Both the position numbers and the translations under genes were made by a program. From assembly GCA_024638915.1 (NCBI GenBank), contig JAHEJJ010000001.1, positions 248,001-312,000 on the forward strand: a stretch of DNA of 64,000 nucleotides, given 5' to 3'. Shown in pieces: positions 40,297-59,995 of this stretch (the stretch's first letter is position 1; the number at the start of each line of letters is the position of its first letter). This DNA is from Robiginitalea sp. GTDB lineage: Bacteria; Bacteroidota; Bacteroidia; Flavobacteriales; Flavobacteriaceae. The notes below the pieces were generated by a model, which was given only the letters and a program-made list of their open reading frames with translations, was not told where the DNA came from and ran no database searches.

Positions 40297-41784
40297 TCAC
40301 AATACCCCCTGTATAAAGGGATGTAAGCTCTTGTAGATTAAATCGCTCAACCATAATGGGGCGACTCCTATCCCTATAATGGGTAATAATAATAGTAAAA
40401 TCCCAACCCGTTCATACCAGCTTACCCTGGGGAGTTGCAAATAAGCCTCCTCTTTCACCGGACCCATGAGCATAATACCCACAACCCGCAGTATATACAC
40501 CGCAGTTACCACGATGGCCGAAACCGAAACTACGGTGGCGATCCTGTAGTATATATTCTCGTGCTCAAAAGCTCCGACGAAGATATTCATCTCAGCTACG
40601 AATCCGCTAAATCCCGGTAGCCCCAAAGAAGCCAGACCTGCAACGACGTAGGTGGCGGAGATCATAGGAATTACTTTTAGCAAGCCGCCCATTTTTCGGA
40701 CATCTCGGGTATGCGTCCGTTCGTAAATCATCCCGATCAAGGCAAAAAATAGCGCGGTCATAAAACCATGCGAAAGCGATTGGATGATGGCACCGTTCCA
40801 GGCCGTTTTATTAAACATCAAGAGGGCGAATAAGACCAAACCCAAATGACTCACTGAAGAGTAGGCGTTGATGTACTTCAGATCGGTTTGCCTTACCGCC
40901 GCAAAAGCTCCATAAATCACCCCAAAAGCAGAGAGGATAATAAAGATCCAGGACCATTCAACGGCGCCCTCGGGCAGCACATAGAGCGCTACTCTGAATA
41001 CCCCATAGCCTCCTAGTTTCATCAATACACCGGCATGAAGCATCGAAACCGCTGTAGGAGCTGAAGCATGTCCGTCTGGTGACCAGGTATGGAAGGGAAA
41101 TAGGGCACCGATCACTGCAAAACCTATAAAGGTCAGTGGGAAGAATATTTTTTGTGCTTCCGCAGGGATATTTGCGGCGGCCAGCTCAAGTATATTGAAG
41201 GTGAACCCGTTTCCAGCCGTATCTGAATTAAAATAGATCCCAAGGATACCTACCAGAAGTACAGCCGAGGCTGCCATTAGCATCAAGGTGAGTTTCATGG
41301 CCGAAAATTCTCTCCTTCCCGATCCCCAAATACCGATGAGAAGGTACATGGGTATAACCGCGAGCTCGAAGAATACGAACATAGTAAATAGATCCAGACT
41401 GATAAAGAATCCATATACTCCGGTGGCGAGGATGATTAGTGCTATAAAGAACTCCTTAGGCAGTTCTCCGATCCTCCAGGAAATAAACACACCGGCCATG
41501 ACCACGATACTGGTCAATAAAACCATCGTCACCGAGATCCCATCTGCACCGATGCTGTAATGAATATTGAAGGGTTCAAACCAGATGAGGTCTTTGGTAA
41601 AGAGCATGATTGAATCGTCTATCGCCCTCTCTTTTATATAGGCAAAGACCAGATGTACACTCATGGCAAACTGTACGATACTACCCAATAGTGCAATGAG
41701 TCGGGCCTGGCCTAAATTCCGCGTGAAGACCAACAGCAGGATGGTAATGGCGGGAACGATCAAAAAAAGTGATAATATATCCAT
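40297..41784 (-). CDS. nuoM: NADH-quinone oxidoreductase-type subunit M
   Basis: The 495-residue antiporter-like subunit has about 14 transmembrane helices. The helix 5 glutamate is in FVFFELAVIPMYLLIGIWG, and the middle channel region reads ALFPFHTWSPDGHASAPTAVSMLHAGVLMKLGGYG, with the expected Lys. It is encoded 9 bases after nuoL. The length is normal. It is assigned to complex I rather than to an Mrp antiporter because the full nuoA-D and H-N set is present. Confidence 0.95.
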   Translation of the reverse strand: MDILSLFLIVPAITILLLVFTRNLGQARLIALLGSIVQFAMSVHLVFAYIKERAIDDSIMLFTKDLIWFEPFNIHYSIGADGISVTMVLLTSIVVMAGVFISWRIGELPKEFFIALIILATGVYGFFISLDLFTMFVFFELAVIPMYLLIGIWGSGRREFSAMKLTLMLMAASAVLLVGILGIYFNSDTAGNGFTFNILELAAANIPAEAQKIFFPLTFIGFAVIGALFPFHTWSPDGHASAPTAVSMLHAGVLMKLGGYGVFRVALYVLPEGAVEWSWIFIILSAFGVIYGAFAAVRQTDLKYINAYSSVSHLGLVLFALLMFNKTAWNGAIIQSLSHGFMTALFFALIGMIYERTHTRDVRKMGGLLKVIPMISATYVVAGLASLGLPGFSGFVAEMNIFVGAFEHENIYYRIATVVSVSAIVVTAVYILRVVGIMLMGPVKEEAYLQLPRVSWYERVGILLLLLPIIGIGVAPLWLSDLIYKSLHPFIQGVL

Positions 41785-41793: not shown

Positions 41794-43713
41794 TTATTCG
41801 GTCAGGTAATAGACAAAGAAGATGACGATTACCAATATGCCAGCCACAAAAGCCATGGCATAGTCTTGTACTTTGCCCGATTGCATTCCTTTTATTTTCT
41901 CAGATGTCCTTACCGTACTATTTCCAATTCCCACCATGGTTCCGTCTACCACCTGGCGATCGAACTTGGCTGCCGGTTCTGCAACTCTTTTAAAAAGGAT
42001 TTTTTTGGTAACAAAGAGGTAGACCTCATCGATATAGAATTTATGATAGGTCCAGGTATATAATTTGCCTAATGCATCGACCATTTTTTCCGGCAGACCT
42101 GTCTCTTTCCTGTAAAAAAGCCACGCCAGTCCTATTCCGGCCATTCCTGTGGCTACTGCAGCCAGGGCGAGCGGTAGATTTATATGGGCCTCGAGAACCA
42201 TACGATCTGCGCTGATGAATTCCCCAAAGGGCACAAAACCGGCCAGGGTACTGAAAGCAGCCAATATGATCAGAGGTATGGTCATCGTTGCAGGCGACTC
42301 ATGCGGTGTTGATGCATATTCAGGATCCCTTTTCCAAAAAATACCGAAGTAGATACGAAACATATAGAAAGCGGTTAACCCGGCGACGAGTAGCGCGACG
42401 ATATACAGCAACGTATTTTTTTCATATACGGCTACCAGAATTTCATCCTTGCTCCAGAAGCCGGCCAGGGGAGGGATTCCTGCAATGGCCAGAGCAGCTA
42501 TAAGAAATGTTATATGGGTGATGGGCATGTACTTTCGAAGTCCGCCCATATCTTTTAAGTAATTGCTGTGTACCGCGTGTATTACCGATCCGGCACAAAG
42601 GAATAACAGGGCTTTAAACATAGCATGAGTAAAGAGATGAAACATCGAGGCCATATACCCCAGTCCGGCTTCCCCTTCATACCCGGAAACACCAAGGGCT
42701 AACATCATATAGGCGAGTTGGGACATTGTTGAGTAGGCCAGAACACGTTTTATGTCGTTTTGCGTGATCGCAATTATGGCGGCGAACAGCGCTGAAAAAG
42801 CGCCTACAAAAGCTACCACCTGCAAAATGATCCCTTCTTCAACAAAATAATACATCGGGAATAGACGGGCCACAAGATAGACACCCGCCACTACCATAGT
42901 AGCCGCGTGGATCAATGCCGAGACTGGCGTAGGACCTTCCATGGCATCAGGCAGCCAGATATGCAGAGGAAACATGGCCGATTTCCCTGCACCGCCAATA
43001 AAAATTAGAAGGAGGCCCCAACTGAGAACAGACATACCGAAGAAGGAAGATGCTGCCCAGCTTAGTATAGGACTACCTTCCGGATTGTTCAAAAGTTCGA
43101 AGTCGTAAGTACCCGTATAAAAACCAACGATGAGAATACCGATCAGGAAACCCAGATCGGCAAAACGGGTAACGACAAATGCTTTTTTTGCCGCGGCAAC
43201 AGCCGTGGGTTTGGTATAATAAAACCCTATCAACAGGTAGGATGAGACCCCTACTAATTCCCAAAAGATATAGATCTGGAATAAATTTGTAGCCAGAACC
43301 AGACCATACATGGAAAAGGTAAATAACGACAGAAATGCAAAAAATTTGGTGTAACCCGGATCTCCTTTCATATACCCCCTGCTGTAGAGATGTACCATCA
43401 GGGAAACAATTGACACCACGAGCAACATCATGATGGAGATCGGATCGAGAAGCACTCCCATATCGATCCTGAGGGTTTCGGTGAAATTCATCCAGACGGT
43501 TTTATGGACTAAGGTTTGATAAGCCACCCCGTCATTACTGAAAACGAAGAAATACTGATAGGCAACTTTGATGGAGAGCAGTGTAGAGATCAAAAGCCCA
43601 AGAGCGCCAATAATTCCTGAAACGGCTGGTTTAATGCGGCTGTAAAAAATTCCCAGCACCAGGAAAACTGCCAGGGGAATGAGGGGAATAATGAGTATCT
43701 CGGTGTAATTCAT
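41794..43713 (-). CDS. nuoL: NADH-quinone oxidoreductase-type subunit L
   Basis: The 639-residue protein is the distal antiporter-like subunit. The conserved segments are YIFWELVGVSSYLLIGFYY (helix 5 Glu), GAGKSAMFPLHIWLPDAMEGPTPVSALIHAATMVVAGVYL, and a long C-terminal region with the lateral helix and a final transmembrane segment. The length is normal for NuoL. The gene lies 12 bases after nuoK. Confidence 0.95.
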   Translation of the reverse strand: MNYTEILIIPLIPLAVFLVLGIFYSRIKPAVSGIIGALGLLISTLLSIKVAYQYFFVFSNDGVAYQTLVHKTVWMNFTETLRIDMGVLLDPISIMMLLVVSIVSLMVHLYSRGYMKGDPGYTKFFAFLSLFTFSMYGLVLATNLFQIYIFWELVGVSSYLLIGFYYTKPTAVAAAKKAFVVTRFADLGFLIGILIVGFYTGTYDFELLNNPEGSPILSWAASSFFGMSVLSWGLLLIFIGGAGKSAMFPLHIWLPDAMEGPTPVSALIHAATMVVAGVYLVARLFPMYYFVEEGIILQVVAFVGAFSALFAAIIAITQNDIKRVLAYSTMSQLAYMMLALGVSGYEGEAGLGYMASMFHLFTHAMFKALLFLCAGSVIHAVHSNYLKDMGGLRKYMPITHITFLIAALAIAGIPPLAGFWSKDEILVAVYEKNTLLYIVALLVAGLTAFYMFRIYFGIFWKRDPEYASTPHESPATMTIPLIILAAFSTLAGFVPFGEFISADRMVLEAHINLPLALAAVATGMAGIGLAWLFYRKETGLPEKMVDALGKLYTWTYHKFYIDEVYLFVTKKILFKRVAEPAAKFDRQVVDGTMVGIGNSTVRTSEKIKGMQSGKVQDYAMAFVAGILVIVIFFVYYLTE

Positions 43714-43725: not shown

Positions 43726-44043
43726 TCAGTATTTCATGGTTTCCACATCTTTTACTTCCACTGAACTTATCTGTCGGTATAGATTGATGATGATCCCCAC
43801 CGCCAAAGCGGTTTCTGCAGCAGCCACTGCGATGATAAAAATGGAGAATACCACTCCCTGCAGCACATCGGGATATAGATATTTATTGATCACCACGAAA
43901 TTTACCACCGAAGCGTTCAATAGCAACTCGATCGAAATCAATATGGAAATCAGGTTTTTTCTTGTAATAAATCCATAGATACCGATAAAAAATAAGATGG
44001 ATGTAACGGTCAATATTTCATAAAGGCTTACATCGTGTATCAT
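43726..44043 (-). CDS. nuoK: NADH-quinone oxidoreductase-type subunit K
   Basis: The 105-residue MrpC-like subunit has three transmembrane helices. The two membrane glutamates needed for proton transfer are visible in ISIELLLNASVVNFV (helix 2) and in VAAAETALAVGI (helix 3). It overlaps nuoJ by 4 bases. Confidence 0.94.
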   Translation of the reverse strand: MIHDVSLYEILTVTSILFFIGIYGFITRKNLISILISIELLLNASVVNFVVINKYLYPDVLQGVVFSIFIIAVAAAETALAVGIIINLYRQISSVEVKDVETMKY

Positions 44044-44564
44044 GTTGGTTTATTGTTTTTAACCATAAGCTTGGTACCCTTGGCGATAACGATCGCTCCT
44101 ATCATGGCGGCCAGGAGTAGGATACTGATCACCTCAAAAGGCAGAATAAATCCACCTTCGCCATAACTTAGCAGGCGTTCACCAATAGCCTCAGTGGTGG
44201 TGGTTTGCTTATTATCGACCATTTTGAATTCGAAACTGAAGATGGTGTAGATAAATACACCCATTCCGACAATGCATAGCACCGCAGTGGTGATTCGTTT
44301 CGCTATAGAGGCCATTTCCAATCTCATTTCAATATGATGAACGAGCAAAACTGAAAAAATGATCAGCACGATGATACCACCAGCATAGACAGTCAACTGA
44401 ATCGCGGCAAGCAGATTGTAATCGATGAGAAAAAAAATACCAGCAATACTGATCAATACAAAGGCTAAATAAATTACCGAGCGCAGCATTTTTCGACTGT
44501 TTACCGAGGCTATGGCAAATGCGATGATTACGAATGCTAAAATGTAGAAGATAATTCTTTCCAT
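44040..44564 (-). CDS. nuoJ: NADH-quinone oxidoreductase-type subunit J
   Basis: The 174-residue protein has five transmembrane helices. The family segment AIQLTVYAGGIIVLIIFSVLLVH includes the pi-bulge helix 3 near the quinone entrance. The C-terminal helix is followed by a short Lys-rich tail. It lies 3 bases after nuoI and overlaps nuoK by 4. Confidence 0.92.
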   Translation of the reverse strand: MERIIFYILAFVIIAFAIASVNSRKMLRSVIYLAFVLISIAGIFFLIDYNLLAAIQLTVYAGGIIVLIIFSVLLVHHIEMRLEMASIAKRITTAVLCIVGMGVFIYTIFSFEFKMVDNKQTTTTEAIGERLLSYGEGGFILPFEVISILLLAAMIGAIVIAKGTKLMVKNNKPT

Positions 44565-44567: not shown

Positions 44568-45044
44568 CTAGTCTTCAACCCCGGCCCTTAGTTTAGACCC
44601 CGGTCTGTTCAGGACACGGGTCAGCTGAGTTCTGTCGTATACCGAGTTTTCAAAGTTCTGCCCCCACTTGATCGCATCGGTGGGGCAAACATCTATACAT
44701 AAGCCACACATAGTACAAAGGCTTAAATGATATACGAACTTGTCTATTTTCTTTTTTTTCTTCCCGCTGTATTCGTCTATTCCCCTATCCCAAACGATCT
44801 CGATCGATCCATTGGGGCAGGCTATTTCACACTTCTGGCAACCGGTACAGGTATGCTCATTCTTCTCGTCGTGCGGCATGATTACTTCACCCCGGAAACG
44901 CTCGAACATTTTTAAGGTATCCCGGTTGTCAGGATATTGTTGGGTAATGGCTCCCTTACGGGAATTCAAAAAGTATTTACCCGTTACGCTCATCCCCTTC
45001 AAAAGGGTTATAACACCATTGTATATTTCAGAGAAATAACTCAT
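44568..45044 (-). CDS. nuoI: NADH-quinone oxidoreductase-type subunit I (2x[4Fe-4S])
   Basis: NuoI holds clusters N6a and N6b and passes electrons towards NuoB. The 158-residue protein has the two ferredoxin motifs CTGCQKCEIACPNG and CTMCGLCIDVCPTD, and an amphipathic N-terminal helix. Since NuoEFG are missing from this operon, NuoI and the NuoB-C-D edge would be the natural docking place for an external donor such as ferredoxin; this is an inference. It lies 4 bases after nuoH. Confidence 0.95.
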   Translation of the reverse strand: MSYFSEIYNGVITLLKGMSVTGKYFLNSRKGAITQQYPDNRDTLKMFERFRGEVIMPHDEKNEHTCTGCQKCEIACPNGSIEIVWDRGIDEYSGKKKKKIDKFVYHLSLCTMCGLCIDVCPTDAIKWGQNFENSVYDRTQLTRVLNRPGSKLRAGVED

Positions 45045-45048: not shown

Positions 45049-46113
45049 CTAGAATTTTATAGTTAAGTTTAGCCATACCATCACCGCCATAATCACAATA
45101 TTCACAAGGTTCATCGGCAAGAGGTATTTCCACTCAAGCGTCAGGAGCTGATCGATACGCAAGCGTGGGAAGGTCCACCTGAACCACATCATCAGGAACA
45201 CTAGCATCAGGGTTTTAAGCAAAAACCAGAATACCCCCAGCAACGGGATACTTTCAGTAATCCCAAAGGGGGAAAGCCAGGCGCCGAAGAAAACAGTGGT
45301 GGCAATAGCACATATAATGAACATATTGATGAATTCAGCCAGGAAGAAATACGCGAATTTCATTCCTGAATACTCGGTATGGAAACCTGCCCCCAACTCC
45401 GATTCAGCTTCCACCATGTCGAAGGGAGCCCGGTTAGTCTCTGCGGTACCAGAGATCATAAAAATCATAAAAGCTACAATTGCGGGAATATGCCCCTGAA
45501 CGATAAGCCAACCGCTTTTCTGTACTTCTACAATCTGTGATAACTGCAAAGTCCCGGTCAGAAGCACCATGGTAAGTAACGAAAGACCAACGGAAAGCTC
45601 ATAGCTGATGGTTTGTACGCCACTTCGCATCGCCCCGATAAGCGCATATTTATTGTTGCTGCCCCATCCTCCAAGTAGAATGCCTATCACTCCGATCGAC
45701 GATACGGCGATCAGAAAAAACAGACCGATGTTGATATCGAAGGCTTGAAATTCCCGGGTAAACGGAAATACACTGAGGGCCATCAGCGAGGATATAATCA
45801 CAAAATACGGAGCCAGGTTATATAGAAATGTATCGGCCTTAGTGGTTCCTGTAAGTTCCTTGGAAAGGAGTTTCAGGGCATCGGCCATGGTTTGAAGCAA
45901 TCCCTGAAAACCGACCCTATTGGGCCCCAAACGCTGTTGAAACCAGGCGGCTATTCTTCTTTCAAGAAGTACGAGAAAGAGACCTGCCACGGCAAATATA
46001 CCGAGGTAAACCAATGCGATCAGGACCATTTCCGTAAGGGATGCGGCCCATTCCGGCATCGCACCGTATAACCAGTCGTGAATATCCCTGGTAATGCTCA
46101 AACCAATTATCAT
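45049..46113 (-). CDS. nuoH: NADH-quinone oxidoreductase-type subunit H
   Basis: NuoH forms most of the quinone chamber and links the Q site to the proton pumps. The 354-residue protein has eight transmembrane helices and the signature ERRIAAWFQQRLGPNRVGFQGLLQ near residue 50. The loop PFDMVEAESELGAGFHTEYSG, with its clustered glutamates, is intact. The upstream neighbour is nuoD, not nuoG, with a 119-base gap between them. Confidence 0.96.
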   Translation of the reverse strand: MIIGLSITRDIHDWLYGAMPEWAASLTEMVLIALVYLGIFAVAGLFLVLLERRIAAWFQQRLGPNRVGFQGLLQTMADALKLLSKELTGTTKADTFLYNLAPYFVIISSLMALSVFPFTREFQAFDINIGLFFLIAVSSIGVIGILLGGWGSNNKYALIGAMRSGVQTISYELSVGLSLLTMVLLTGTLQLSQIVEVQKSGWLIVQGHIPAIVAFMIFMISGTAETNRAPFDMVEAESELGAGFHTEYSGMKFAYFFLAEFINMFIICAIATTVFFGAWLSPFGITESIPLLGVFWFLLKTLMLVFLMMWFRWTFPRLRIDQLLTLEWKYLLPMNLVNIVIMAVMVWLNLTIKF

Positions 46114-46232: not shown

Positions 46233-47354
46233 TCACCTATCAATATCCGGTATCACTAAATCGAGTGTCGCCATTGTGGCGACCAGGTCACCAATTTTTC
46301 CACCAACTGCAATATGATTGAGCAGGGAAAGGTTAGAGAAACCCGGTGATCTGAATTTAAGCCGGTAAGGACTCTTTGTTCCTGTACTGATAATGTAGAC
46401 CCCCAGCTCACCCCTTGCGGTCTCAACTTTCTGGTAATATTCTCCTTTTGGAAGCTTTATCACAGCTTTTGTAGGGACCCTGTATTCACCTTCCGGAATG
46501 TTGTCGATCAGTTGTTCGACGATCGATAAAGACTCCCACATCTCCTCAATACGCACCGAATATCTGGCGAATGTGTCGCCTTCTGTTCGTAGTGGTTCGT
46601 TAAAATCAACCTGGTCCAATGCACTATAAGGATGGTATTTCCTCACATCGCAGGAATAACCTGAACCCCTGGCTACCGGTCCGGAAGCCCCAAAAGAAAT
46701 AGCATCTTCCCTGCTTAATATACCTACGCCTTTGGTGCGCTTCTGGAATATCACATTCTCGGTAAGCAAGCGGTCGTATTCGGGAATTTTTGTTTTAAAA
46801 TGGGCGATAAACTCCTTTACCCTCGAAACAAAATTGGGGTGTATATCGAACATCAACCCACCAGGAACGTTGTAGTTCATGGTTAACCTGGCACCACAGG
46901 TCTCTTCGAAAATATCATTGAGCATTTCCCTGTCCCTAAAGCCATAGAAAAATGTAGTAAGCGCTCCTACATCCATCCCCATAACCCCCCACCAGAGGCA
47001 GTGAGATGAGATTCGGGTGAGTTCTCCGATGATGGTGCGTATCACCCTGACACGTTCCGGCACTTCCAATTCGAGCGCTTTCTCAACGCACAGACAAACG
47101 GCTTCGTTATTGATGTTGGCCGACAGGTAGTCCATTCGGTCGGTAAGATGAACAATTTGCTGGTAGCTATCCCTTTCACACATCTTTTCGATCGACCTGT
47201 GGATATACCCCAGATCTGGTTCTACCTTTTTAATGATCTCCCCATCGATTGTCAGCAACAGCCGAAGTACCCCATGGGTCGCCGGATGCTGGGGCCCCAT
47301 ATTGATAAAATATTCCTCTGACTTAAAATTGCTTTTGATGGTCGTGCTTTCCAT
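46233..47354 (-). CDS. nuoD: NADH-quinone oxidoreductase-type subunit D
   Basis: NuoD (49-kDa subunit) forms the quinone-binding site with NuoB. The 373-residue protein shows NMGPQHPATHGVLRLLLTIDGE (the His of the quinone site), EKMCERDSYQQIVHLTDRMDYLS (the Tyr and Asp region), and the C-terminal LATLDLVIPDIDR. It has no hydrogenase-type CxxC pairs, so it is a complex I subunit and not a [NiFe] hydrogenase. NuoC and NuoD are separate genes 5 bases apart. Confidence 0.96.
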   Translation of the reverse strand: MESTTIKSNFKSEEYFINMGPQHPATHGVLRLLLTIDGEIIKKVEPDLGYIHRSIEKMCERDSYQQIVHLTDRMDYLSANINNEAVCLCVEKALELEVPERVRVIRTIIGELTRISSHCLWWGVMGMDVGALTTFFYGFRDREMLNDIFEETCGARLTMNYNVPGGLMFDIHPNFVSRVKEFIAHFKTKIPEYDRLLTENVIFQKRTKGVGILSREDAISFGASGPVARGSGYSCDVRKYHPYSALDQVDFNEPLRTEGDTFARYSVRIEEMWESLSIVEQLIDNIPEGEYRVPTKAVIKLPKGEYYQKVETARGELGVYIISTGTKSPYRLKFRSPGFSNLSLLNHIAVGGKIGDLVATMATLDLVIPDIDR

Positions 47355-47359: not shown

Positions 47360-47824
47360 CTATTTGATGATCATATTGATTTCATCCACATAATCCTTTC
47401 TCAGCGGAAATCCCTCCCACTCCTCGGTGAGGAATAACCGTTTTAAATTTGGATGGTTGTTGAAGATGATCCCAAAAAAGTCGAAGGCCTCCCTTTCGTG
47501 AAATTCAGCGGTGTACCAAATGGAACTTACAGAATCCAAGCTGGGATGATCTCTGTTTTCGGTCTGAACCCTTACCACGATATTATGGCGATGTTTTGTG
47601 GACTCAAGGTGATAAATCACCCCCAGAGCCTCACCCCAGTCTACCCCTGTCAGGCAATAGAGATAGTCGAACTGGCAAGCATCATCCTCTTTCAGGCGGC
47701 TCATCAATCCGAATAATTGATCGGGGGGAGTTTCGATATTTAAAAATTCGGAACCTTCTTCCCAAAACTCAAGTCCTGGAAGCCAGCTGGAAATCAATTC
47801 CTGTAATGCTTCGTTGTTCATCAT
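47360..47824 (-). CDS. nuoC: NADH-quinone oxidoreductase-type subunit C
   Basis: The 154-residue soluble subunit (30-kDa family) has the conserved [17 protein letters not shown] and [30 protein letters not shown], followed by GFPLRKDYV. It helps bind NuoB, NuoD and NuoI in the connecting arm. It overlaps nuoB by 4 bases. Confidence 0.95.
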
Positions 47825-48411
47825 TTTTCGTAAATGCCCTTGTCGAATCCTTCGATGGGGTTTTTCTTATTTTTCCTGTTTTCAAGACGTATTTTATCCT
47901 GAAGCATCAGCATTCCTTCAAGCAATGCTTCAGGTCTCGGGGGACATCCGGGAACATATACATCCACAGGAATTACGTGATCTGCACCCTTTACCACCGA
48001 ATAAGTATTATAGAAAAAAGGCCCTCCTGAAATTGCACAGGCACCCATGGCGATCACATAGCGGGGTTCTGCCATCTGATCGTAAAGCCTTCTTAGAACT
48101 GGGGCCATCTTATTAACGATGGTTCCAGCAATTATAATCAGGTCTGCCTGTCGCGGTGAAGGTCTGGCCACTTCAAAACCGAAGCGCGAATAATCGTGCC
48201 TGGAGGCGCCTGTCTGCATCATCTCTATGGCACAACAACTGGTACCGAAATAAAGCGACCAAAGCGAATTTGCCCTGCCCCAGTTGATAATTTTATCCAG
48301 ATTGGTTACCACAATATTGGCACCGTTACCCGCCGGGATGACCTTTCCGGGGAAATCCTCTGGTATTTTGTTCTGATCCTCTATTCCCATTGCAATGCTC
48401 CTTTTTTCCAT
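47821..48411 (-). CDS. nuoB: NADH-quinone oxidoreductase-type subunit B
   Basis: NuoB carries the terminal cluster N2, which reduces quinone. The cluster ligands are seen in [11 protein letters not shown] (tandem Cys), in [12 protein letters not shown], and in [13 protein letters not shown]. The C-terminal 25 residues ([18 protein letters not shown]) are a charged extension. The start may be the ATG at 48411, overlapping nuoA by 31 bases, or the internal ATG at 48390 (GIEDQN). Confidence 0.95.
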
Positions 48412-48731
48412 GCATATAATAAACCCAGTCCCAGAATTACGAGAAATATCAATACCTCTATAAAAGCGACAAACCCTATACCCTCATATACCACCGCCCA
48501 GGGTACCAGAAATGCGACTTCAACGTCGAAAATCAAAAAAAGGATGGCAAAGAGATAATAGCCCACCTTAAACTGGACCCAGGTAGGGCCGATGGTCGTC
48601 ATCCCACTTTCGTAGGGTTCTCTTTTTTGTGGGTTATCTGATTTATGGGAAACCAGGTTCGACAAAAAATTTGCTCCGGCGACAAGTACAATGCCCGAAA
48701 CTAAAAATACGATTATGGCTTCTGATCCCAT
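48381..48731 (-). CDS. nuoA: NADH-quinone oxidoreductase-type subunit A
   Basis: The 116-residue protein has three transmembrane helices and the conserved [40 protein letters not shown], including the Cys/Gly-Pro loop region near the quinone site and the Asp-Glu pair in the second helix. It starts 16 bases after the korB stop, so the oxidoreductase and Nuo genes are co-transcribed. Confidence 0.95.
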
Positions 48732-48747: not shown

Positions 48748-49758
48748 TTAGTTTACGTCATAAGTCTCACCAGAAAAGAACAAGTCGTCTGCTTTGGCAA
48801 AACTGGAATCGGCTTTAACCTGTTTGGTAACCTCCCGCACTCTCTCTTCTAATGTTATATCGGTAAAACTCCGAATAATACCAGTTACAAGAGGGTATTC
48901 CGATCTAACGAGCATTTGATGAAGTGTGGGATCTTTGTTCTCTGCATCATGAACGAGCAAATCATCTTCCGTTATACCATTCTCGCCAATGGTTACAACC
49001 TCTAGTTTTAATCCATTTAAAACAAGGCCTTTATCCCGTTCTTTACCAAAGATCATGGGCTTGCCATGTTCTACGAAAAGCTGCTTATCTTCCCTTACAT
49101 TTTTATCGGTGTATTCTGCAAAAGCACCATCGTTGAATATAGGGCAGTTCTGCAGGACCTCTATCAGTGAGGTGCCTTTGAATTTTGCAGCATCCACAAA
49201 GACCTGTGTCATCTCTTTGGGTGTATTTCCGCCTACTCTGGCAAAAAACCTTGCCTGGGCCCCTATGGCGAGTTCTCCGGGTTGAAACGGAGGCTGTGTG
49301 TTGCCATAGGGCGAAGATTTGGTGCGTTGCCCTACGGTGGATGTCGGTGAAAACTGTCCTTTAGTAAGCCCGTAGATCTCATTATTGAAGAGTACGATAT
49401 TGAGGTCCAGATTTCTCCTAAGAACATGGATAAAATGATTTCCTCCAATGGCCATGGCGTCACCGTCTCCGGTGATAATCCAAACCTGCAAATCGGGGTT
49501 GGCCAGTTTAACACCCGATGCTATGGCAGGAGCTCGCCCGTGGATGCTGTGCATCCCATAGGTATCCATATAATAGGGGAACCTGGAAGAACAGCCGATG
49601 CCTGAAATAAAAACCACATCCTCCTTTTTTACACCCATTTCCGGAAGAGCTTTTTGCATGGCCCTGAGGATCACGTAGTCATCACAACCAGGGCACCAAC
49701 GAACTTCCTGATCGCTTGCAAAATCTTTGAATGTATATTTTTTAACTGTAGTTTCCAT
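48748..49758 (-). CDS. korB: 2-oxoacid:ferredoxin oxidoreductase, beta subunit
   Basis: This 336-residue subunit binds thiamine diphosphate and one 4Fe-4S cluster. Cluster ligands are visible in VRWCPGCDDYVIL, SGIGCSSRFPYY and EVLQNCPIFND. The TPP motif is TGDGDAMAIGGNHFIHVLRR, with LFNNEIYGLTKGQFSPTS after it. The enzyme oxidises 2-oxoglutarate (or other 2-oxoacids) with CoA and passes electrons to ferredoxin. It lies 3 bases after korA and 16 before nuoA. The substrate preference cannot be fixed by eye; 2-oxoglutarate is the usual annotation for this two-subunit type. Confidence 0.88.
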   Translation of the reverse strand: METTVKKYTFKDFASDQEVRWCPGCDDYVILRAMQKALPEMGVKKEDVVFISGIGCSSRFPYYMDTYGMHSIHGRAPAIASGVKLANPDLQVWIITGDGDAMAIGGNHFIHVLRRNLDLNIVLFNNEIYGLTKGQFSPTSTVGQRTKSSPYGNTQPPFQPGELAIGAQARFFARVGGNTPKEMTQVFVDAAKFKGTSLIEVLQNCPIFNDGAFAEYTDKNVREDKQLFVEHGKPMIFGKERDKGLVLNGLKLEVVTIGENGITEDDLLVHDAENKDPTLHQMLVRSEYPLVTGIIRSFTDITLEERVREVTKQVKADSSFAKADDLFFSGETYDVN

Positions 49759-49761
49759 GCT

Positions 49762-51615
49762 CTAGAGAAATTGTTTGAATTTTTCAATTAATTCGGTATT
49801 TCCAAAAGGTAAACCCTGTACCTTGTTGAACTGTGCATATCGATGTCCTTCCAGTCTTGATTTCAGAACAGTGACGAATTGCCCCGAATTCAGTTCACAA
49901 ACCAGAATATGTTCAAATTTGTTAAAGACCTCATCAGTATTTGACGGAAGAGGATTGATATAGTTAAAATGGGCCAGGCCGACATCTTTACAACCTTCCT
50001 GAACCATTTGCTTGACTGCCGAGTAGAGAGAACCATAAGTTCCACCCCATCCTACCACCAGAAGTTTGCCTTCTGAACAGAATTCTGCTTTGATATGAGG
50101 TATATACTTCTGTACCCGCTGCACTTTTTCGGCTCTTAAATCTGTCATATGTTGATGGTTCTCTGGCACATAAGATACATTACCACTTATCTTATCTTTT
50201 TCCAAACCGCCCACCCTGTGCTCCAGACCGGCAGTTCCAGGCACCGCCCAGTCCCTTGCCAGTGTCTCTTCATCCCGGTCGTAAGGGTGCCAGCTGTCAG
50301 GAGCACTCTTCAGCTTGCGCGGTACGATGTCGGGCATTTCTGAGGTAGATTGTATTTTCCAGGGTGCAGAACCATTGGCGATATATCCGTCGGATAACAA
50401 TAATACCGGCGTCATATGTTCCAATGCCAGTTTGGAGGCTTCATAAGCAAAATTGAAGCAATTGGAAGGAGTACTGGCTGCGATCACAATGATTGGGCTT
50501 TCGCCATTGCGCCCATAGAGTGCTTGTAAAAGATCGGATTGCTCTGTTTTGGTGGGCAGGCCAGTGGAAGGTCCTCCTCTTTGGACATTGACCACCACCA
50601 GAGGGAGTTCGAGCATCATCGCCAGTCCCAGAGCCTCACCTTTAAGTGCCAGCCCAGGCCCTGAAGTAGTGGTTATGGCCAGATCGCCTGCAAAGGCAGC
50701 TCCTATCGCAGAACTTATTCCCGCAATTTCATCTTCAGCCTGTAATGCTTTAACACCAAAGTGTTTGTGCTTCGCCAGTTCGTGGAGGATGTCGGAGGCG
50801 GGGGTGATTGGATAGGAACCCAAAAACAATTCCAAGCCGGATTTTTCCGCAGCCGCCAGGAATCCCCAGGCAATGGCTGTATTACCCATAATAATACGAT
50901 AGGTGCCCGTAGCCATTTTGGCAGGAGCAACCGTATAGGAATTTGGGATCAATTCCAATGTTTCAGCAAAGTAAAATCCGGCGTTCAACACCTTGGTATT
51001 TGCCTCGATTATCGCCGGTTTTAATTTGAATTTTTTATTGAAGAACTCAATAGTATGTTCTGTGGATCGATTGTACATCCAATAAACCATGCCTAATGCG
51101 AACATATTTTTGCTACGAACGATACTTTTATTGTCCAAACCCTCAACATTTTTAAGGGCCTCTTTGGTTAGCGAGGTCATTTTAACCTCGATCACCTGAA
51201 AGTTTTCCAAACTACCGTCTTCTAGAGGATTGGATTCATACTGAGCCTTTTCCAAATTTTTCCGGCTGAAGGCATCAATGTCTACTATTATAGTGTGACC
51301 TGGTTTTACCGCATGCAGATTGGTTTTGAGGCCCGCTGGATTCATAGCAACGAGCAGATCCACATTATCGCCGGGAGTGCTGATCTCCACACTGCCTATG
51401 TGTACCTGAAATCCGGAAACACCATATAGACTACCCTGAGGGGCTCTGATCTCGGCAGGATAATTTGGGAAGGTCGCCACGTCATTACCAAACATGGCTG
51501 AAGTATCTGAGAACTGTGTACCCGTAAGTTGCATACCGTCTCCGGAATCACCGACAAATCGTACAACTACTGCCTCCAATACTTCCTGTTGAGGGCTTTT
51601 TTTAGCTGTAATCAT
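49762..51615 (-). CDS. korA: 2-oxoacid:ferredoxin oxidoreductase, fused gamma-alpha subunit
   Basis: The 617-residue protein joins an N-terminal gamma domain (VVVRFVGDSGDGMQLTGTQF, residues about 15-190) to an alpha domain with the pyrimidine-binding fold (FLGSYPITPASDILHELAKH near residue 262; TTTSGPGLALKGEALGLAM near residue 315). With korB it forms a two-subunit enzyme without a ferredoxin-like delta subunit, a type known from aerobes such as Halobacterium and mycobacteria. It is the first gene of the nuo operon. Its start lies 163 bases from the divergent ferredoxin gene. Confidence 0.9.
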   Translation of the reverse strand: MITAKKSPQQEVLEAVVVRFVGDSGDGMQLTGTQFSDTSAMFGNDVATFPNYPAEIRAPQGSLYGVSGFQVHIGSVEISTPGDNVDLLVAMNPAGLKTNLHAVKPGHTIIVDIDAFSRKNLEKAQYESNPLEDGSLENFQVIEVKMTSLTKEALKNVEGLDNKSIVRSKNMFALGMVYWMYNRSTEHTIEFFNKKFKLKPAIIEANTKVLNAGFYFAETLELIPNSYTVAPAKMATGTYRIIMGNTAIAWGFLAAAEKSGLELFLGSYPITPASDILHELAKHKHFGVKALQAEDEIAGISSAIGAAFAGDLAITTTSGPGLALKGEALGLAMMLELPLVVVNVQRGGPSTGLPTKTEQSDLLQALYGRNGESPIIVIAASTPSNCFNFAYEASKLALEHMTPVLLLSDGYIANGSAPWKIQSTSEMPDIVPRKLKSAPDSWHPYDRDEETLARDWAVPGTAGLEHRVGGLEKDKISGNVSYVPENHQHMTDLRAEKVQRVQKYIPHIKAEFCSEGKLLVVGWGGTYGSLYSAVKQMVQEGCKDVGLAHFNYINPLPSNTDEVFNKFEHILVCELNSGQFVTVLKSRLEGHRYAQFNKVQGLPFGNTELIEKFKQFL

Positions 51616-51651
51616 AGACTATGGGGTTTAATGATTTTTATTTAAATTTAT

Positions 51652-51685
51652 CAAAAATAAAGCAGACCCGATTAAAGGACTCAAA
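51652..51685 (-). promoter_or_regulatory. candidate promoter of the korAB-nuo operon
   Basis: On the minus strand, TTTG at 51685-51682 and TATTTTTG at 51659-51652 give a -33/-7 pair spaced by 22 bases. The -7 box ends 36 bases before the korA ATG. A second TAnnTTTG (TATATTTG, 51689-51682) overlaps the -33 box. This is the best-formed promoter I see for a long operon. Confidence 0.55.
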
Positions 51686-51778
51686 TATAATTGTGCCTTT
51701 GTCACCGATTTATGACTTTTATCATTGATCGGCGGAAAATAGAATTATAATTTCACCTTCTATTATTAATATATCAAT

Positions 51779-52129
51779 ATGGCTATTATCATTACAGACG
51801 AATGTATCAATTGTGACGCATGTATTTCAGAATGCCCTAACAATGCGATCTACGAACCTGATCAGGAATGGTCGTATTCCGATGAGACGGCTCTAAGCGG
51901 CACAACAACTACTCCTGATGGCCGGGATGTGGACGCTGATGTGGAAAATGACCCTATTTCTGATGAATTTTATTATATAGTACCCGATAAGTGTACCGAA
52001 TGCAAAGGTTTTCATGAAGAACCTCAATGCGCTTCCGTGTGCCCGGTGGATTGCTGCGTCCCCGATGACGATCATGTGGAAACAGAAGAGGAACTCCTGG
52101 CTAAAAAGTCATGGATGCACGACGAATAA
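51779..52129 (+). CDS. dicluster 2[4Fe-4S] ferredoxin
   Basis: The 116-residue ferredoxin has the first motif CINCDACISECPNNA near residue 10, an insertion of about 45 acidic residues, then CTECKG...CASVCPVDCC for the second cluster. The insertion and C-terminal helix match the Alvin/YfhL-like long ferredoxins, which have low potentials. It is divergent from korA and upstream of nifJ, so it is the obvious electron carrier between the oxidoreductases and Nuo. A strong hairpin terminator follows its stop, so it is made separately from nifJ. Confidence 0.93.
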   Translation: MAIIITDECINCDACISECPNNAIYEPDQEWSYSDETALSGTTTTPDGRDVDADVENDPISDEFYYIVPDKCTECKGFHEEPQCASVCPVDCCVPDDDHVETEEELLAKKSWMHDE

Positions 52130-52193
52130 GGCTGCTGCACCTGGTATTAACAAAGAAGAAGTAAACCTGCCGGATACAGGATTTTATCCCACT

Positions 52194-52230
52194 GAGTCGC
52201 CATGTACACAAGTACATGGCGATTCTTTTT
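52194..52230 (+). terminator. intrinsic terminator after the ferredoxin gene
   Basis: TCGCCATGTAC at 52197-52207 and GTACATGGCGA at 52212-52222 form a perfect 11-bp stem with the 4-base loop ACAA. It extends three more pairs (one G-U) and is followed by TTCTTTTT. It separates the ferredoxin and nifJ transcripts. Confidence 0.92.
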
Positions 52231-52347
52231 ACCGATGATTTTTGCCGGCTTCCTCGGCGGAACCATCATCCCGTAGACGATCAACCGCTTACAACTGACA
52301 AATATCATGTTCTGAGCGACCCTATCCCATTATTTTTATGCTCGTTC

Positions 52348-52368
52348 TAAGGTATGTTTATACCATAA
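52348..52368. promoter_or_regulatory. imperfect palindrome upstream of nifJ
   Basis: The stretch TAAGGTAT-GTTT-ATACCATAA has 5-base perfect arms (GGTAT/ATACC) extended imperfectly on both sides. It lies about 55 bases before the nifJ ATG, where an operator could sit. No TAnnTTTG box is evident in this leader. Confidence 0.3.
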
Positions 52369-52423
52369 GCTTACAACAGTGATCACCATTATATTCAAGA
52401 ATTCCTACCGAAATTAAAGAATC

Positions 52424-55400
52424 ATGAAAAGGGACTTTCCAAAACTCATCTGCGATGCGAATGAAGCCGTTGCGCGTATCGCCCATAAGACTAATGAAGT
52501 ATGTGCTATTTATCCAATTACCCCAGCTTCACCGATGGGGGAACATGTGGATGTATTCAGCTCCCGGGGCGAAAAGAACATCTGGGGCAACGTGCCACGA
52601 ATCGTCGAAATGCAAAGTGAGGGTGGTGCTTCAGGTGCTGTTCATGGTTCCCTCCAGGCAGGGGCACTAACCACTACGTTTACAGCCTCACAGGGATTAT
52701 TATTGATGATGCCCAATATGTATAAGATGGCTGGCGAATTACTGCCGGGAGTGATTCATGTTGCAGCCAGAACAGTTGCTACCCATGCCCTCTCAATTTT
52801 CGGAGACCATTCGGATGTTATGGCGACAAGGCAAACAGGTTTTTCAATGCTTTTCGGGGGTTCGGTACAGGAGGCGATGGATTTTGCTTTGATCTCCCAG
52901 GTGGCCGCTCTGAAATCAAGAGTTCCTTTTCTCAATGTGTTCGATGGTTTTAGAACCTCACACGAGATATCCAAAATCGATGCCATTCCAGACGAAGTGA
53001 TCAAAGCCATGATGCCGGAAAATGAGATCATGGGGCATAAGAATCGCTCACTCGATCCGGATCACCCCGTGGTCAGGGGTACATCACAAAACCCTGACGT
53101 TTTCTTCCAGGCCAGGGAGGCGGCCAATACCTATTATGACGAGGTGCCGCAGATCGTGGAAGATGTTATGGATGATTTATATAAGCATACGGGACGGCGA
53201 TATAGCATTTTTTACTATTTGGGCCATCCTGAGGCAGAAAGAGTAATTGTCATTATGGGTTCCGGTCAGGGTGCTGTTCGGGAGGCTGTTGAAGCCATGA
53301 TCGATCAGGACGAGAAGGTCGGGGTGCTGTTCGTAAGACTTTATCGTCCATTTTCAGTAAAACGTTTTCTAGATAATCTTCCCAAAACCGTAAAGAAAAT
53401 AGCAGTTCTTGACCGTACCAAAGAACCGGGCAGTACCGGTGAACCGCTCTACCTTGATGTGGTGGCGGCACTTGCAGAAAGTAAACGCTCCATCCCGGTA
53501 GTTGGAGGTCGCTACGGACTTTCATCAAAGGAATTTACCCCGCAAATGGTAAAAGGAGTCTTCGACGAGTTGAACAAAACTGAACCCAAAAACCACTTCA
53601 CCGTGGGTATAAACGACGACGTTACCCACACCAGCCTATCGCTGGATCCCGATTTCAAAGTGAAGACACATACGATTAACTGTATGTTCTATGGACTGGG
53701 ATCAGATGGTACTGTTGGGGCGAATAAGAACTCGATCAAAATTATAGGCGAGACCACAGATAACTACGTCCAGGGATATTTCGTTTACGATTCTAAAAAA
53801 GCCGGCGCACAAACTGTATCACACCTGCGGTTCGGCCCCGATCCGATCTATTCGTCATACCTGATTGACAGCGCCGATTTTATCGCCTGTCATCAGTTTA
53901 ATTTTATAGAGAAATACGATGTGATCGGCAAGTTAAAATCCGGAGGTACGTTTCTATTAAATGCACCGTATAACAAGGACGAGGTTTGGAATAAAATACC
54001 ACGAAAACTTCAGGAAGGTATCATCGAAAAAGAAGCTAAGTTTTATGTGGTCGACGCCACCAAAGTAGCCCAGGAAGCCAAGCTTGGAAAGCGCACCAAT
54101 ACGGTACTTCAAACCTGTTTCTTTGCTATATCCGGAGTCTTGCCAAGAGAGGAAGCTATTCAAAAGATTAAAGATGCGATTGTTAAGTCGTATTCTCACA
54201 AAGGCGATAAGATCGTCCAGATGAACTTCAATGCGGTAGATAAGGCCCTGGAGAATTTGTACGAGGTGGTTTATCCGAAATCAGTAACAAGTAATATCCC
54301 ATTGCAGCCCGTAATGACCCACGCCCGAGAAGGATTTGTCAGCGAGGTACTTCAAAAGATACTGGGCGGATTGGGTGATGAATTGCCCGTTAGTGCCTTC
54401 CCGGTTGATGGTACCTTCCCTATGGGTACTACCCAGTACGAAAAGAGGGGAATTGCCAATTTTATTCCGGTCTGGGACGATGAAGTATTATGTACACAGT
54501 GCAATAAATGTGTCGCTATTTGTCCCCATGCTGCGATTCGGGCTAAAGTAATACCCAACAACTTGCTTTCCGAAGCTCCCGATTCACTAAAAGCGGTTGC
54601 TGCAAAAGGAAGGCCTTTTAACAAAGAAGAAGAGTCGTATATTCTCCAGGTTTCACCTGAGGATTGTACCGGATGTGATCTCTGCGTTGCGGTATGTCCT
54701 GCTGAGAGCAAGGAGATAGAAGATTTTAAGGCCATCAATATGCGTCGCAAAATGGATGTTGATGCCGATGAAAATGTCAACTGGGATTACTTTATACAAC
54801 TCCCCGATTACGACAGGACGGCGCTGCAGATTACCAATCTGAAAGGTTCTCAGTTTCTCGAGCCGTTGTTCGAATTCTCAGGCGCCTGTTCCGGTTGTGG
54901 AGAGACGCCTTATATAAAAATGCTGACGCAACTTTATGGCGACAGTATAATGATCGCGAATGCTACGGGATGTTCTTCCATCTATGGGGGTAACCTTCCT
55001 ACTACTCCTTATAAAACAAATAAGGAGGGCAGGGGTCCTGCCTGGGCCAATTCCCTTTTCGAGGACAATGCGGAATTCGGATATGGAATGAAACTCGCGT
55101 TGAGCAAGAAGCAAGAGATTGCGGTAAGTCTGCTAAGATCTCTGCAATCTCTGGTGGGCTCTGAACTTGTGGAAGCCATTCTCGAGAATTCGGAAACCAC
55201 AGAAGCTGAACGAAGTGAGAAATTCGCTCAGATCGAAGAGGTCAAAACTATATTAGCCAAATACAAAGACAATGCCGACGCCGCTAAACTTATCCAACTG
55301 GCTGATTACCTGAGAAGGAAGTCGGTTTGGATCTTAGGCGGAGATGGTTGGGCATACGACATAGGTTATGGTGGCCTCGACCACGTTATGGCTTCGGGTG

Positions 55401-55954
55401 AGGACATCAATATTATGGTACTCGATACCGAGGTGTATTCCAACACTGGCGGGCAGACTTCTAAAGCGACTCCTCTTGGTGCGAGTGCTAAATTTTCCGT
55501 ATCGGGCAAAAGAACAGGGAAGAAAAACCTTGCTCTTCAGGCTATTTCCTACGGGAACGTGTATGTAGCTCAAGTGGCCATGGGTGCCAAAGATATGCAG
55601 ACACTCAGGGCTATTGAGGAAGCGGAAGCCTATCCGGGTCCTTCGTTGATTGTGGCCTACTCCCATTGTGGCGAACACGGTTATGACCTTAAAGAAGGTG
55701 CAGATCACCAAGCCCGCGCCGTTGAAACCGGTTATTGGCCATTATTCAGATATGATCCTTCGAAACCTAAAGGGAAGAAATTCAAGCTGGATTCCAAGCA
55801 GCCCACCAGACCTCTAAGCGATTTTATGTATAAGGAAACACGCTTTACCAGGGTGGTTAAAGACAACAAAGCTCTTGGAGCAGAATTGTTGAAACAGGCC
55901 CAGGAAGAAGTTGACACCAAATGGGAGCGATTGGAGCTCTTTAAAACGATGTGA
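52424..55954 (+). CDS. nifJ: pyruvate:ferredoxin (flavodoxin) oxidoreductase
   Basis: NifJ/PFOR oxidises pyruvate with CoA to acetyl-CoA and CO2 and reduces ferredoxin or flavodoxin. The 1176-residue single chain has the full domain order: YPITPASPMGEHVD near residue 28, the gamma domain around 415-630, two 4Fe-4S motifs (CTQCNKCVAICPH and CTGCDLCVAVCPAES) at about 690-770, and the TPP domain with CSGCGETPYIKML, NATGCSSIYGG and DTEVYSNTGGQTSKATPLG. The Desulfovibrio-type long C-terminal extension is short here. It lies downstream of the ferredoxin but behind a terminator. Confidence 0.96.
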   Translation: MKRDFPKLICDANEAVARIAHKTNEVCAIYPITPASPMGEHVDVFSSRGEKNIWGNVPRIVEMQSEGGASGAVHGSLQAGALTTTFTASQGLLLMMPNMYKMAGELLPGVIHVAARTVATHALSIFGDHSDVMATRQTGFSMLFGGSVQEAMDFALISQVAALKSRVPFLNVFDGFRTSHEISKIDAIPDEVIKAMMPENEIMGHKNRSLDPDHPVVRGTSQNPDVFFQAREAANTYYDEVPQIVEDVMDDLYKHTGRRYSIFYYLGHPEAERVIVIMGSGQGAVREAVEAMIDQDEKVGVLFVRLYRPFSVKRFLDNLPKTVKKIAVLDRTKEPGSTGEPLYLDVVAALAESKRSIPVVGGRYGLSSKEFTPQMVKGVFDELNKTEPKNHFTVGINDDVTHTSLSLDPDFKVKTHTINCMFYGLGSDGTVGANKNSIKIIGETTDNYVQGYFVYDSKKAGAQTVSHLRFGPDPIYSSYLIDSADFIACHQFNFIEKYDVIGKLKSGGTFLLNAPYNKDEVWNKIPRKLQEGIIEKEAKFYVVDATKVAQEAKLGKRTNTVLQTCFFAISGVLPREEAIQKIKDAIVKSYSHKGDKIVQMNFNAVDKALENLYEVVYPKSVTSNIPLQPVMTHAREGFVSEVLQKILGGLGDELPVSAFPVDGTFPMGTTQYEKRGIANFIPVWDDEVLCTQCNKCVAICPHAAIRAKVIPNNLLSEAPDSLKAVAAKGRPFNKEEESYILQVSPEDCTGCDLCVAVCPAESKEIEDFKAINMRRKMDVDADENVNWDYFIQLPDYDRTALQITNLKGSQFLEPLFEFSGACSGCGETPYIKMLTQLYGDSIMIANATGCSSIYGGNLPTTPYKTNKEGRGPAWANSLFEDNAEFGYGMKLALSKKQEIAVSLLRSLQSLVGSELVEAILENSETTEAERSEKFAQIEEVKTILAKYKDNADAAKLIQLADYLRRKSVWILGGDGWAYDIGYGGLDHVMASGEDINIMVLDTEVYSNTGGQTSKATPLGASAKFSVSGKRTGKKNLALQAISYGNVYVAQVAMGAKDMQTLRAIEEAEAYPGPSLIVAYSHCGEHGYDLKEGADHQARAVETGYWPLFRYDPSKPKGKKFKLDSKQPTRPLSDFMYKETRFTRVVKDNKALGAELLKQAQEEVDTKWERLELFKTM

Positions 55955-55980: not shown

Positions 55981-56358
55981 ATGGAAAAGAATGCACATGA
56001 ATTATATCAGCAGGCGGTGCAAAAATTAAAAGAAGCCAACAAAGAGCTTTGCCGCCCGGAAGAAGATGTGGTGGCATACATGGTATGTAAAAATTCGCAG
56101 ATCGCTATCGATTCTTTTTTAAGAGGATATTTGCTGCAACAGGGAATCGAACCCTCAAAAGAGGCCACCATCGATGAGCTATATGGACATTGTAAAGGGG
56201 TTAATGAACATTTTGACAAAATTGACCTGGCCGGATTTGATTGCCAGGCCCATTCATTGGAGTCCCGTTATTGTAGTGGCACCGAGAAAGTTAGTCGTTG
56301 CTTCGACATCGCAGACAGTCTGGACAGCTTTCTTAGGGAGAAAAAGATCATCAGCTAG
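55981..56358 (+). CDS. HEPN-like small helical protein
   Basis: The 125-residue protein is predicted all-helical and starts 27 bases after nifJ, so it is probably co-transcribed. The pattern AIDSFLRGYLLQQGIEPS followed by ELYGHCKGVNEHF resembles HEPN-fold proteins (helical bundles that may bind nucleotides or act as RNases). The RxxxxH catalytic motif of HEPN RNases is not obvious. It contains five Cys (at about 24, 36, 72, 89, 98), which is high for this size. The fold is an inference; no function is assigned. Confidence 0.55.
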   Translation: MEKNAHELYQQAVQKLKEANKELCRPEEDVVAYMVCKNSQIAIDSFLRGYLLQQGIEPSKEATIDELYGHCKGVNEHFDKIDLAGFDCQAHSLESRYCSGTEKVSRCFDIADSLDSFLREKKIIS

Positions 56359-58393: not shown

Positions 58394-58402
58394 GAGTTTT
58401 GG

Positions 58403-59985: not shown

Positions 59986-59995
59986 ATTGGTAAAG

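Follow-up and report, generated by a model that had tools for sequence, protein, structure and literature searches.

A 2-oxoacid oxidoreductase and ferredoxin island joined to an 11-subunit complex I operon in Robiginitalea: conservation and a proposed respiratory role

Introduction

The NDH-1 form of complex I in cyanobacteria has a subunit make-up without NuoE, NuoF, and NuoG, the NADH-input subunits. It takes electrons from ferredoxin, and pyruvate:ferredoxin oxidoreductase (PFOR), which responds to highly reducing conditions, works there aerobically beside pyruvate dehydrogenase (PDH; PMC8887894). In the microaerophile Campylobacter jejuni, electrons pass from the oxidoreductase Oor to the flavodoxin FldA, then to a complex I that lacks the NADH subunits, and finally through menaquinone to oxygen, with Por and Oor replacing the dehydrogenase complexes (PMC4257069); this complex I keeps NuoG (PMC7002350). 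Bacteroides fragilis and Prevotella copri possess an NUO complex of 11-subunit organization that likewise lacks NuoEFG (PMC7002350), and in B. fragilis NuoC and NuoD are fused (PMC11304471). This article describes a locus of Robiginitalea sp. (Flavobacteriaceae) in which genes for a two-subunit 2-oxoacid:ferredoxin oxidoreductase (korA and korB), a ferredoxin (fdx), and a single-chain PFOR (nifJ) adjoin a complex I (nuo) operon. The window, that is, the whole stretch of DNA analyzed, comprises 64,000 nucleotides (contig JAHEJJ010000001.1 of assembly GCA_024638915.1, positions 248,001 to 312,000) of a source genome of 3.04 Mb that is 98.4% complete (G000). The island is interpreted, with a probability of roughly three in four, as a ferredoxin-fuelled respiratory module in which electrons from 2-oxoacids would pass through KorAB and NifJ to ferredoxin, and from there through an 11-subunit complex I to menaquinone.

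Such a pathway would be analogous to the Campylobacter and cyanobacterial routes, but would keep the PDH and 2-oxoglutarate dehydrogenase (OGDH) complexes and build korAB into the nuo operon. As in the Oor/Por route (PMC4257069), a 2-oxoacid oxidoreductase is proposed to feed complex I via a small carrier, followed by menaquinone and oxygen; in contrast to C. jejuni, however, PDH and OGDH are retained, the carrier would be a 4Fe-4S ferredoxin rather than a flavodoxin, and the nuo operon begins with korAB and does not encode NuoG. With cyanobacteria, the locus shares a PFOR beside PDH in an aerobe (PMC8887894) and a complex I without NuoEFG, for which acceptance of ferredoxin is here predicted, whereas there is no photosystem, and the genes lie together, with KorAB encoded as part of the operon. 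The 11-subunit organization is that of the Bacteroides and Prevotella complexes, although nuoC and nuoD are separate. No description of a korAB-nuo operon in flavobacteria was found in the literature searched, which covered titles and the starts of abstracts, with most subscription papers outside its scope.

Organization of the locus

The operon occupies the minus strand in the order korA, korB, nuoA-B-C-D-H-I-J-K-L-M-N, and o111, the nuo genes running on from korB on the same strand down to position 38844. Its intergenic spacing ranges from -31 to +22 bp, with the exception of nuoD-nuoH (119 bp). The fdx and nifJ genes and a gene for a HEPN-domain protein lie on the plus strand, divergent from korA. 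The original prediction of a dicluster ferredoxin between a divergent korAB-nuo operon and a full-length nifJ is borne out by the coordinates, the family models, and the four intact open reading frames (ORFs; korB, korA, fdx, and nifJ). The features are as follows (aa, amino acids; TPP, thiamine pyrophosphate).

49762..51615, minus strand: korA, alpha subunit of the 2-oxoacid:ferredoxin oxidoreductase, to which a gamma domain is fused; opens the operon; 617 aa; TIGR03710 632.7 bits (cut-off 482.75); PF01855 and PF01558
48748..49758, minus strand: korB, beta subunit with TPP domain and one [4Fe-4S] site; 336 aa; TIGR02177 244.7 bits, just below the cut-off of 261.9; PF02775
51779..52129, plus strand: fdx, Alvin/YfhL-type 2[4Fe-4S] ferredoxin; 116 aa; NF033683 96.7 bits (cut-off 86)
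52424..55954, plus strand: nifJ, single-chain PFOR; 1176 aa; TIGR02176 1725.2 bits (cut-off 911.35)
55981..56358, plus strand: HEPN-fold protein with five invariant cysteines, after nifJ; PF05168 29 bits (cut-off 22)
48381..48731, minus strand: nuoA; best of the NCBIfam NuoA models 114.5 bits, below cut-off
47821..48411, minus strand: nuoB (Cys 59, 60, 125, and 156); PF01058 102.6 bits
47360..47824, minus strand: nuoC; TIGR01961 127.0 bits, above cut-off
46233..47354, minus strand: nuoD, short form without PF00346 positions 170-196; NF004739 437.2 bits, above cut-off
45049..46113, minus strand: nuoH; NF004741 324.9 bits, above cut-off
44568..45044, minus strand: nuoI, two [4Fe-4S] motifs; TIGR01971 93.4 bits, below the cut-off of 113.05
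44040..44564, minus strand: nuoJ; NuoJ models, below cut-off
43726..44043, minus strand: nuoK; NF004320 87.6 bits, above cut-off
41794..43713, minus strand: nuoL; NF005141 632.6 bits, above cut-off
40297..41784, minus strand: nuoM; TIGR01972 427.3 bits, above cut-off
38844..40274, minus strand: nuoN; TIGR01770 373.6 bits, above cut-off
38504..38839, minus strand: o111, orphan 111-aa protein, 4 bp after nuoN, candidate twelfth gene of the complex

A complex I operon without an NADH module

The NuoABCDHIJKLMN core of an 11-subunit complex I is encoded in full, including the cluster ligands of NuoB and NuoI. The layout departs from that of the canonical 14-subunit enzyme in that nuoE, nuoF, and nuoG are missing between nuoD and nuoH, where 14-gene operons would carry them (of the three, NuoF alone was searched for genome-wide), and none of them occupies this position in 78 of 78 testable related loci (gap median 13 bp, maximum 469). 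PF01512, the NuoF family that RnfC-like proteins share, gave zero matches in the source genome, its genus-mate G001, and G008, while 9 of 14 control genomes were positive. Because nuoE, nuoF, and nuoG are not in the operon and the genome search for NuoF relatives was negative, the complex appears to have no recognizable NADH entrance. It might instead receive its electrons from an NADH-binding or other protein encoded elsewhere, KorAB being unrelated to it; the donor to the B. fragilis NUO has been called unknown (PMC7002350), and o111 is a protein without known function. This is highly improbable given the missing PF01512 match and the linkage of KorAB described below, and deletion of nuo in B. 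fragilis brought no significant change in NADH:quinone activity (PMC7002350).

Cysteine conservation was counted only over rows that reached 97% coverage and 55% identity. With the window included, the four cluster cysteines of NuoB are kept in 75 of 75 rows and the eight of NuoI in 76 of 76; roles as Fe-S ligands were assigned by motif and are presumed. Among solved chains, NuoD best matches NdhH of cyanobacterial NDH-1 (315.6 bits), followed by the mitochondrial-type 49-kDa subunit (313.1 bits). The match does not tell the donor, since the margin of NdhH is 2.5 bits, and likeness of NuoD was dropped as proof of ferredoxin use. NuoD is about 25 residues shorter than the long form (PF00346 positions 170-196), a gap seen also in relatives and in some CD-fused forms.

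The oxidoreductases and the ferredoxin

KorAB has the features of a two-subunit 2-oxoacid:ferredoxin oxidoreductase, with fused POR and POR_N domains in the alpha subunit and a TPP domain with 4Fe-4S ligands in the beta subunit. The nearest solved relatives of KorB are the S. tokodaii OFOR and then 6n2n, and its four cysteines are kept in 73 of 73 rows. The ferredoxin belongs with the Alvin/YfhL type by its curated model and by its CxxCxxCxxxCP and CxxCx8CxxxCP motifs; all eight ligand cysteines are kept in 64 of 64 rows. It is strongly acidic (31 Asp plus Glu against 5 Lys plus Arg) and carries an insert of about 30 residues between the cluster motifs that is common to the aligned relatives from the class. 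Its nearest solved relatives are the A. vinosum ferredoxin and then Pseudomonas ferredoxin, YfhL, and 1rgv. The last of these is, we take it, the Thauera ferredoxin that is paired with KorAB, so that Thauera aromatica would join KorAB to the same ferredoxin class, although its ferredoxin drives benzoyl-CoA reductase and not complex I.

NifJ aligns with TIGR02176 over residues 9-1171 and has the complete domain order, two Fer4 motifs, and the cysteines of the proximal cluster, as expected of a single-chain PFOR, and its 12 cluster cysteines are kept in 40 of 40 rows. In PFOR of D. africanus, a C-terminal extension protects against oxygen. NifJ has no extension of this type, the alignment stopping at 1163-1164 of 1231-1232 and the query ending at residue 1176; oxygen stability by such a device is therefore not expected.

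Conservation among close relatives

Four NuoD sequences were scanned against genome contigs, which yielded at least 532 relatives, and the best 80 loci were kept; these are close relatives, and the counts drawn from them are not independent. Among the matches listed, the nearest named relatives of NuoD come from Eudoraea (Flavobacteriaceae) at 91-93% identity. In 74 of 75 testable loci korB precedes nuoA on the same strand (the exception is L068, and L132 has a gap of 3.1 kb), while fdx is divergent from korA in all 63 testable. Cultured species whose loci hold the island include Eudoraea adriatica (L070), Muriicola jejuensis (L080), and Salinimicrobium catena (L115). Chance or an assembly artefact is ruled out by the preservation of the layout in the 80 loci and in the genus-mate. 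The nifJ gene follows fdx in 42 of 61 loci, being absent from that place in many Lutibacter loci, and where it was examined (37 loci) the HEPN gene lay within 400 bp after nifJ in 30.

A family-level comparison used 25 genomes, drawn from 40 relatives, of family f1, to which the source genome belongs. Four of them (G000, G001, G004, and G008) carry the KorA type, and it is these four that have NuoD; two belong to one genus, and G004 is 80% complete. Three further f1 genomes came from the class sample; two have a long-form NuoD but no KorA, and one has neither. G004 itself carries two near-identical korA-fdx copies on two contigs (L059 and L060), one of them with nuo, which may reflect a duplication or an assembly effect. 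Genes of the nifJ type are present in 8 of the 25 and are thus not rare in the family, though in the five of these genomes without complex I it is of another type (43-45% identical), with neither fdx nor the HEPN gene in the 15-18 kb fetched. KorAB, ferredoxin, and nuo thus form the tight part of the island, and nifJ is a looser member.

The intergenic region between fdx and korA holds a candidate promoter element of the operon.

51682..51689, minus strand: TATATTTG (TAnnTTTG) box, beginning 74 bp upstream of the korA start

TAnnTTTG is presumably the flavobacterial -7 element. Boxes directed toward korA are found in 52 of 60 such regions, counting that of the window, and most of them start at a distance of 57-78 bp from korA, whereas 200 mononucleotide shuffles gave a mean of 9.3 and a maximum of 17 regions; toward fdx, they are found in 17 of 60 (shuffles: mean 8.6, maximum 16).

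Distribution across the class

Of 149 genomes sampled from the class Bacteroidia, 101 have NuoD and 110 have a KorA match. Thirty NuoD places were chosen by hand and fetched, NuoD being short or lacking PF00346 positions 170-196, and the complex type discussed here comprises 25 of these 30 (unfused NuoD, 59-78% identical to that of the window) together with the source genome. A separate nuoC was seen in 21 of the 25 loci; in the remaining four, a contig end cuts the locus or nuoD stands away from the other genes (G060 and G140). KorA lies near nuo in eight of the 25 (G053, G057, G075, G102, G115, G138, G147, and G181) and about 6 kb past nuoN in a ninth, G082. With kinship ignored and a target of 30 kb within 3.5 Mb, the estimated probability that nine of 26 genomes, counting the source genome, would be linked by chance is about 7e-13. 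In Flavobacteriaceae, G053, and G147, the korAB genes point the same way as nuo; in families f36 and f52 and in G057, they are divergent from it.

A KorA tree of 49 rows was built from hand-picked linked and unlinked members, 10 of its flavobacterial rows being the window and nine of the 80 loci. The nuo-linked label changes five times on it, each change forced by well-supported branches, and nuo-linked rows stand on either side of a 100/100 split. Five rows had been left out, namely the row from G004 that repeats a linked one (L023), the near-identical second copy from G004 (L060), and the long branches L021, L029, and L058; a first tree that included them gave six changes, and the korA of L155, cut by the end of its stretch, is in neither. 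Repeated gain of the KorA-nuo linkage and an old linkage with repeated loss would both fit, and either history speaks for function.

These observations bear on the possibility that KorAB, NifJ, and the ferredoxin merely supply biosynthetic reductases and that the nuo neighborhood has no functional meaning. Many Bacteroidia do have Kor-type enzymes with no complex I close by, where the electrons must go to other sinks. Against this stand the near-invariant korB-nuoA (74/75) and fdx-korA (63/63) arrangements, the restriction of KorA and NuoD to one and the same set of 4 among 25 family genomes, and a linkage that occurs in either orientation and in more than one KorA clade, which together make this possibility very unlikely.

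Two uncharacterized companions of the island

The o111 gene marks this complex type. Wherever a flavobacterial locus extends far enough (62 of 62), and in 20 of 24 class loci, it follows nuoN; it was not found in stretches L056, L061, L063, and L144. An o111 profile matched 26 of the 149 class genomes, and these are exactly the genomes with the complex type. Sequences from 20 of them had supplied the profile, and their matches are by construction; the independent part is its detection in the other six, among which the match in G060, G106, G140, G158, and G166 lay away from the nuoN seen, or nuoN was out of view. Equally independent is the lack of a match in the remaining 123 genomes, including three CD-fused and two hydrogenase-like or distant places and the rest of the 101 genomes with NuoD. 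In the three CD-fused loci sampled (L174, L175, and L180), neither o111 nor korAB was present in the stretch.

No convincing Pfam or NCBIfam family was found for o111, and no solved relative by sequence (best E 1). Weak matches were set aside, namely one to an NCBIfam MazE model (E 8e-4, 19.7 bits against a cut-off of 65) and those of 4 of 47 members to two unrelated Pfam families. Its predicted model (mean local confidence, pLDDT, 79.4; predicted template modeling score, pTM, 0.69) was not assigned to a known fold by Foldseek (best E 0.27), and a resemblance to secretion-ring modules in VIA-align (best Z 5.9, root-mean-square deviation 3.9, 62 residues aligned) was rejected as lying in the range that the tool calls common.

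The HEPN protein is invariant in 32 of 32 aligned rows at A19, E22, P26, E28, and Cys 36, 71, 88, 98, and 107. PF05168 is matched by 22 of the 32 members, and the predicted model is HEPN-like (mean pLDDT 79.8; Foldseek best E 8e-3, to an archaeal HEPN protein). The Rx4-6H motif is catalytic in HEPN RNase toxins. It is not found here, neither Arg nor His being invariant in any column of the 32 rows. In the class sample, 20 of 149 genomes have matches, and 15 matches of at least 80 bits fall in 14 genomes; ten further matches below 50 bits were not counted. Thirteen of the 15 adjoin nifJ/PFOR-like genes, share a cluster with them, or fall within nuo; in the last case, seen in other Bacteroidia families, the gene is flanked by nuoL and nuoM or comes behind nuoL where the contig ends. 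Among the 13, the G165 copy lacks three of the five cysteines. The other two stand outside such a context; rows at odds with the pattern are the C121 copy of G134, with no oxidoreductase in the 10 kb fetched, and that of G166, near a contig end. A HEPN family fused to ferredoxin domains has been listed in Bacteroidetes (PMC3710099).

Related clusters were seen elsewhere. At 2851-7494 of L229, a 1548-aa PFOR-like protein is encoded, with a HEPN gene directly behind it and overlapping its end. RnfC-like genes lie beside genes for PFOR-like fusion proteins in L232 (about 7055-14700) and in L233 (about 1-8200), with a HEPN relative near each and an RnfD-like gene in L232; these represent another oxidoreductase-to-membrane-pump arrangement.

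Metabolic context in the genome

As the original prediction advised, the genome was searched for the dehydrogenase complexes. PDH E1-alpha and E2 and OGDH E1 and E2 all score above curated cut-offs, which rules out replacement of PDH by PFOR, and NqrF is present (573.8 bits). A PF00115 profile search found one heme-copper oxidase (best model CtaD/CoxA, 582.8 bits against a cut-off of 670.75) with a 352-aa ORF just upstream, and it appears to be of the aa3 type. From its gene content, the cell can respire oxygen, with ordinary NAD-linked dehydrogenases and a separate NADH:quinone pump. Given PDH, OGDH, Nqr, and the aa3-type oxidase, the island would be an added route in an aerobe and not a replacement.

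The presence of oxidative PDH and OGDH also leaves room for a reductive role of the extra enzymes: an ion gradient and quinol might drive complex I backwards to reduce ferredoxin, with KorAB and NifJ serving as 2-oxoglutarate and pyruvate synthases in anaplerotic CO2 fixation. The single heme-copper oxidase found is of the aa3 type, the cell is a respirer, and reverse electron flow to ferredoxin potentials is costly; reverse use is accordingly regarded as unlikely. A search for ATP-citrate lyase, with regard to an autotrophic reductive tricarboxylic acid (TCA) cycle, gave no match in the genome, all controls being silent as well.

A proposed ferredoxin-fuelled respiratory module

Under the preferred reading, KorAB (probably acting on 2-oxoglutarate) and NifJ (on pyruvate) would oxidize 2-oxoacids and reduce the clustered dicluster ferredoxin, which would pass electrons to NuoI and NuoB of the complex without NADH subunits. 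Complex I would then reduce menaquinone and pump ions, and the electrons would reach oxygen through the ordinary chain and its oxidase. The result would be a second entry into the chain, of higher driving force, beside PDH, OGDH, and Nqr, likely to be used at high NADH/NAD+, at low oxygen, or in energy shortage; both routes may be kept because the ferredoxin route yields more free energy per electron pair than NADH or gives relief at high NADH. The core of this reading is supported by the conserved korB-nuoA and fdx-korA arrangements, the lack of NuoF, the invariant ligands, and the linkage outside the family. The original suggestion that pyruvate and 2-oxoglutarate oxidation is tied to quinone reduction through ferredoxin gains from an operon without NADH-input subunits in a genome without a NuoF match.

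Several points weigh against this interpretation. KorA was not seen near nuo in 16 of the 25 class genomes with the complex type, several of their contigs being short, and the 2-oxoglutarate-specific (equivalog) models score below their cut-offs for KorAB. The NuoD sequence does not single out a ferredoxin-type complex, NdhH being ahead by the 2.5 bits given above. With PDH, OGDH, and NqrF in the genome, the cell could on paper do without the route. The locus tags of B. fragilis place kor1AB at a distance from nuo (PMC11304471), and the donor to its NUO has been called unknown (PMC7002350).

A wider picture is possible and is put forward tentatively. Bacteroidia may possess a distinct ferredoxin-respiring complex I with o111 as a dedicated twelfth protein, perhaps a subunit for ferredoxin docking or for assembly in place of the NADH module, and the cysteine-rich HEPN protein might guard or mature the clusters of PFOR and complex I in oxygen. 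KorAB would have become associated with the complex on several occasions, and aerobes would thereby have acquired a ferredoxin-linked branch of the TCA cycle beside the NADH-linked one.

Neighboring genes

About 5 kb past the end of the nuo operon, an Mrp/NUBPL-type iron-sulfur carrier ATPase is encoded (32232-33368, plus strand); NUBPL is a mitochondrial complex I assembly factor. On the other side, 57326-61312 (minus strand) holds a cluster of M19 dipeptidase-like, hydroxyaspartate-aldolase-like (BhcC model, far below cut-off), RidA-like, and GntP-type transporter genes.

Significance

The electron donor of the 11-subunit complex I in Bacteroides has been called unknown (PMC7002350), and the present locus places candidate donors in or beside the operon, in relatives of cultured aerobes, which makes the question directly testable. 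The o111 protein and the five-cysteine HEPN protein, both uncharacterized and both recurring with the island in many relatives, provide concrete new targets. The Lutibacter profundi paper describes an NADH complex I (PMC5219744), and the Lutibacter loci in the sample, to which L. profundi itself does not belong, carry a nuo operon lacking nuoE, nuoF, and nuoG. Flavobacterial genomes described as having an NADH complex I may thus instead have a ferredoxin-driven pump and, if this is true, models of their energy yield would change.

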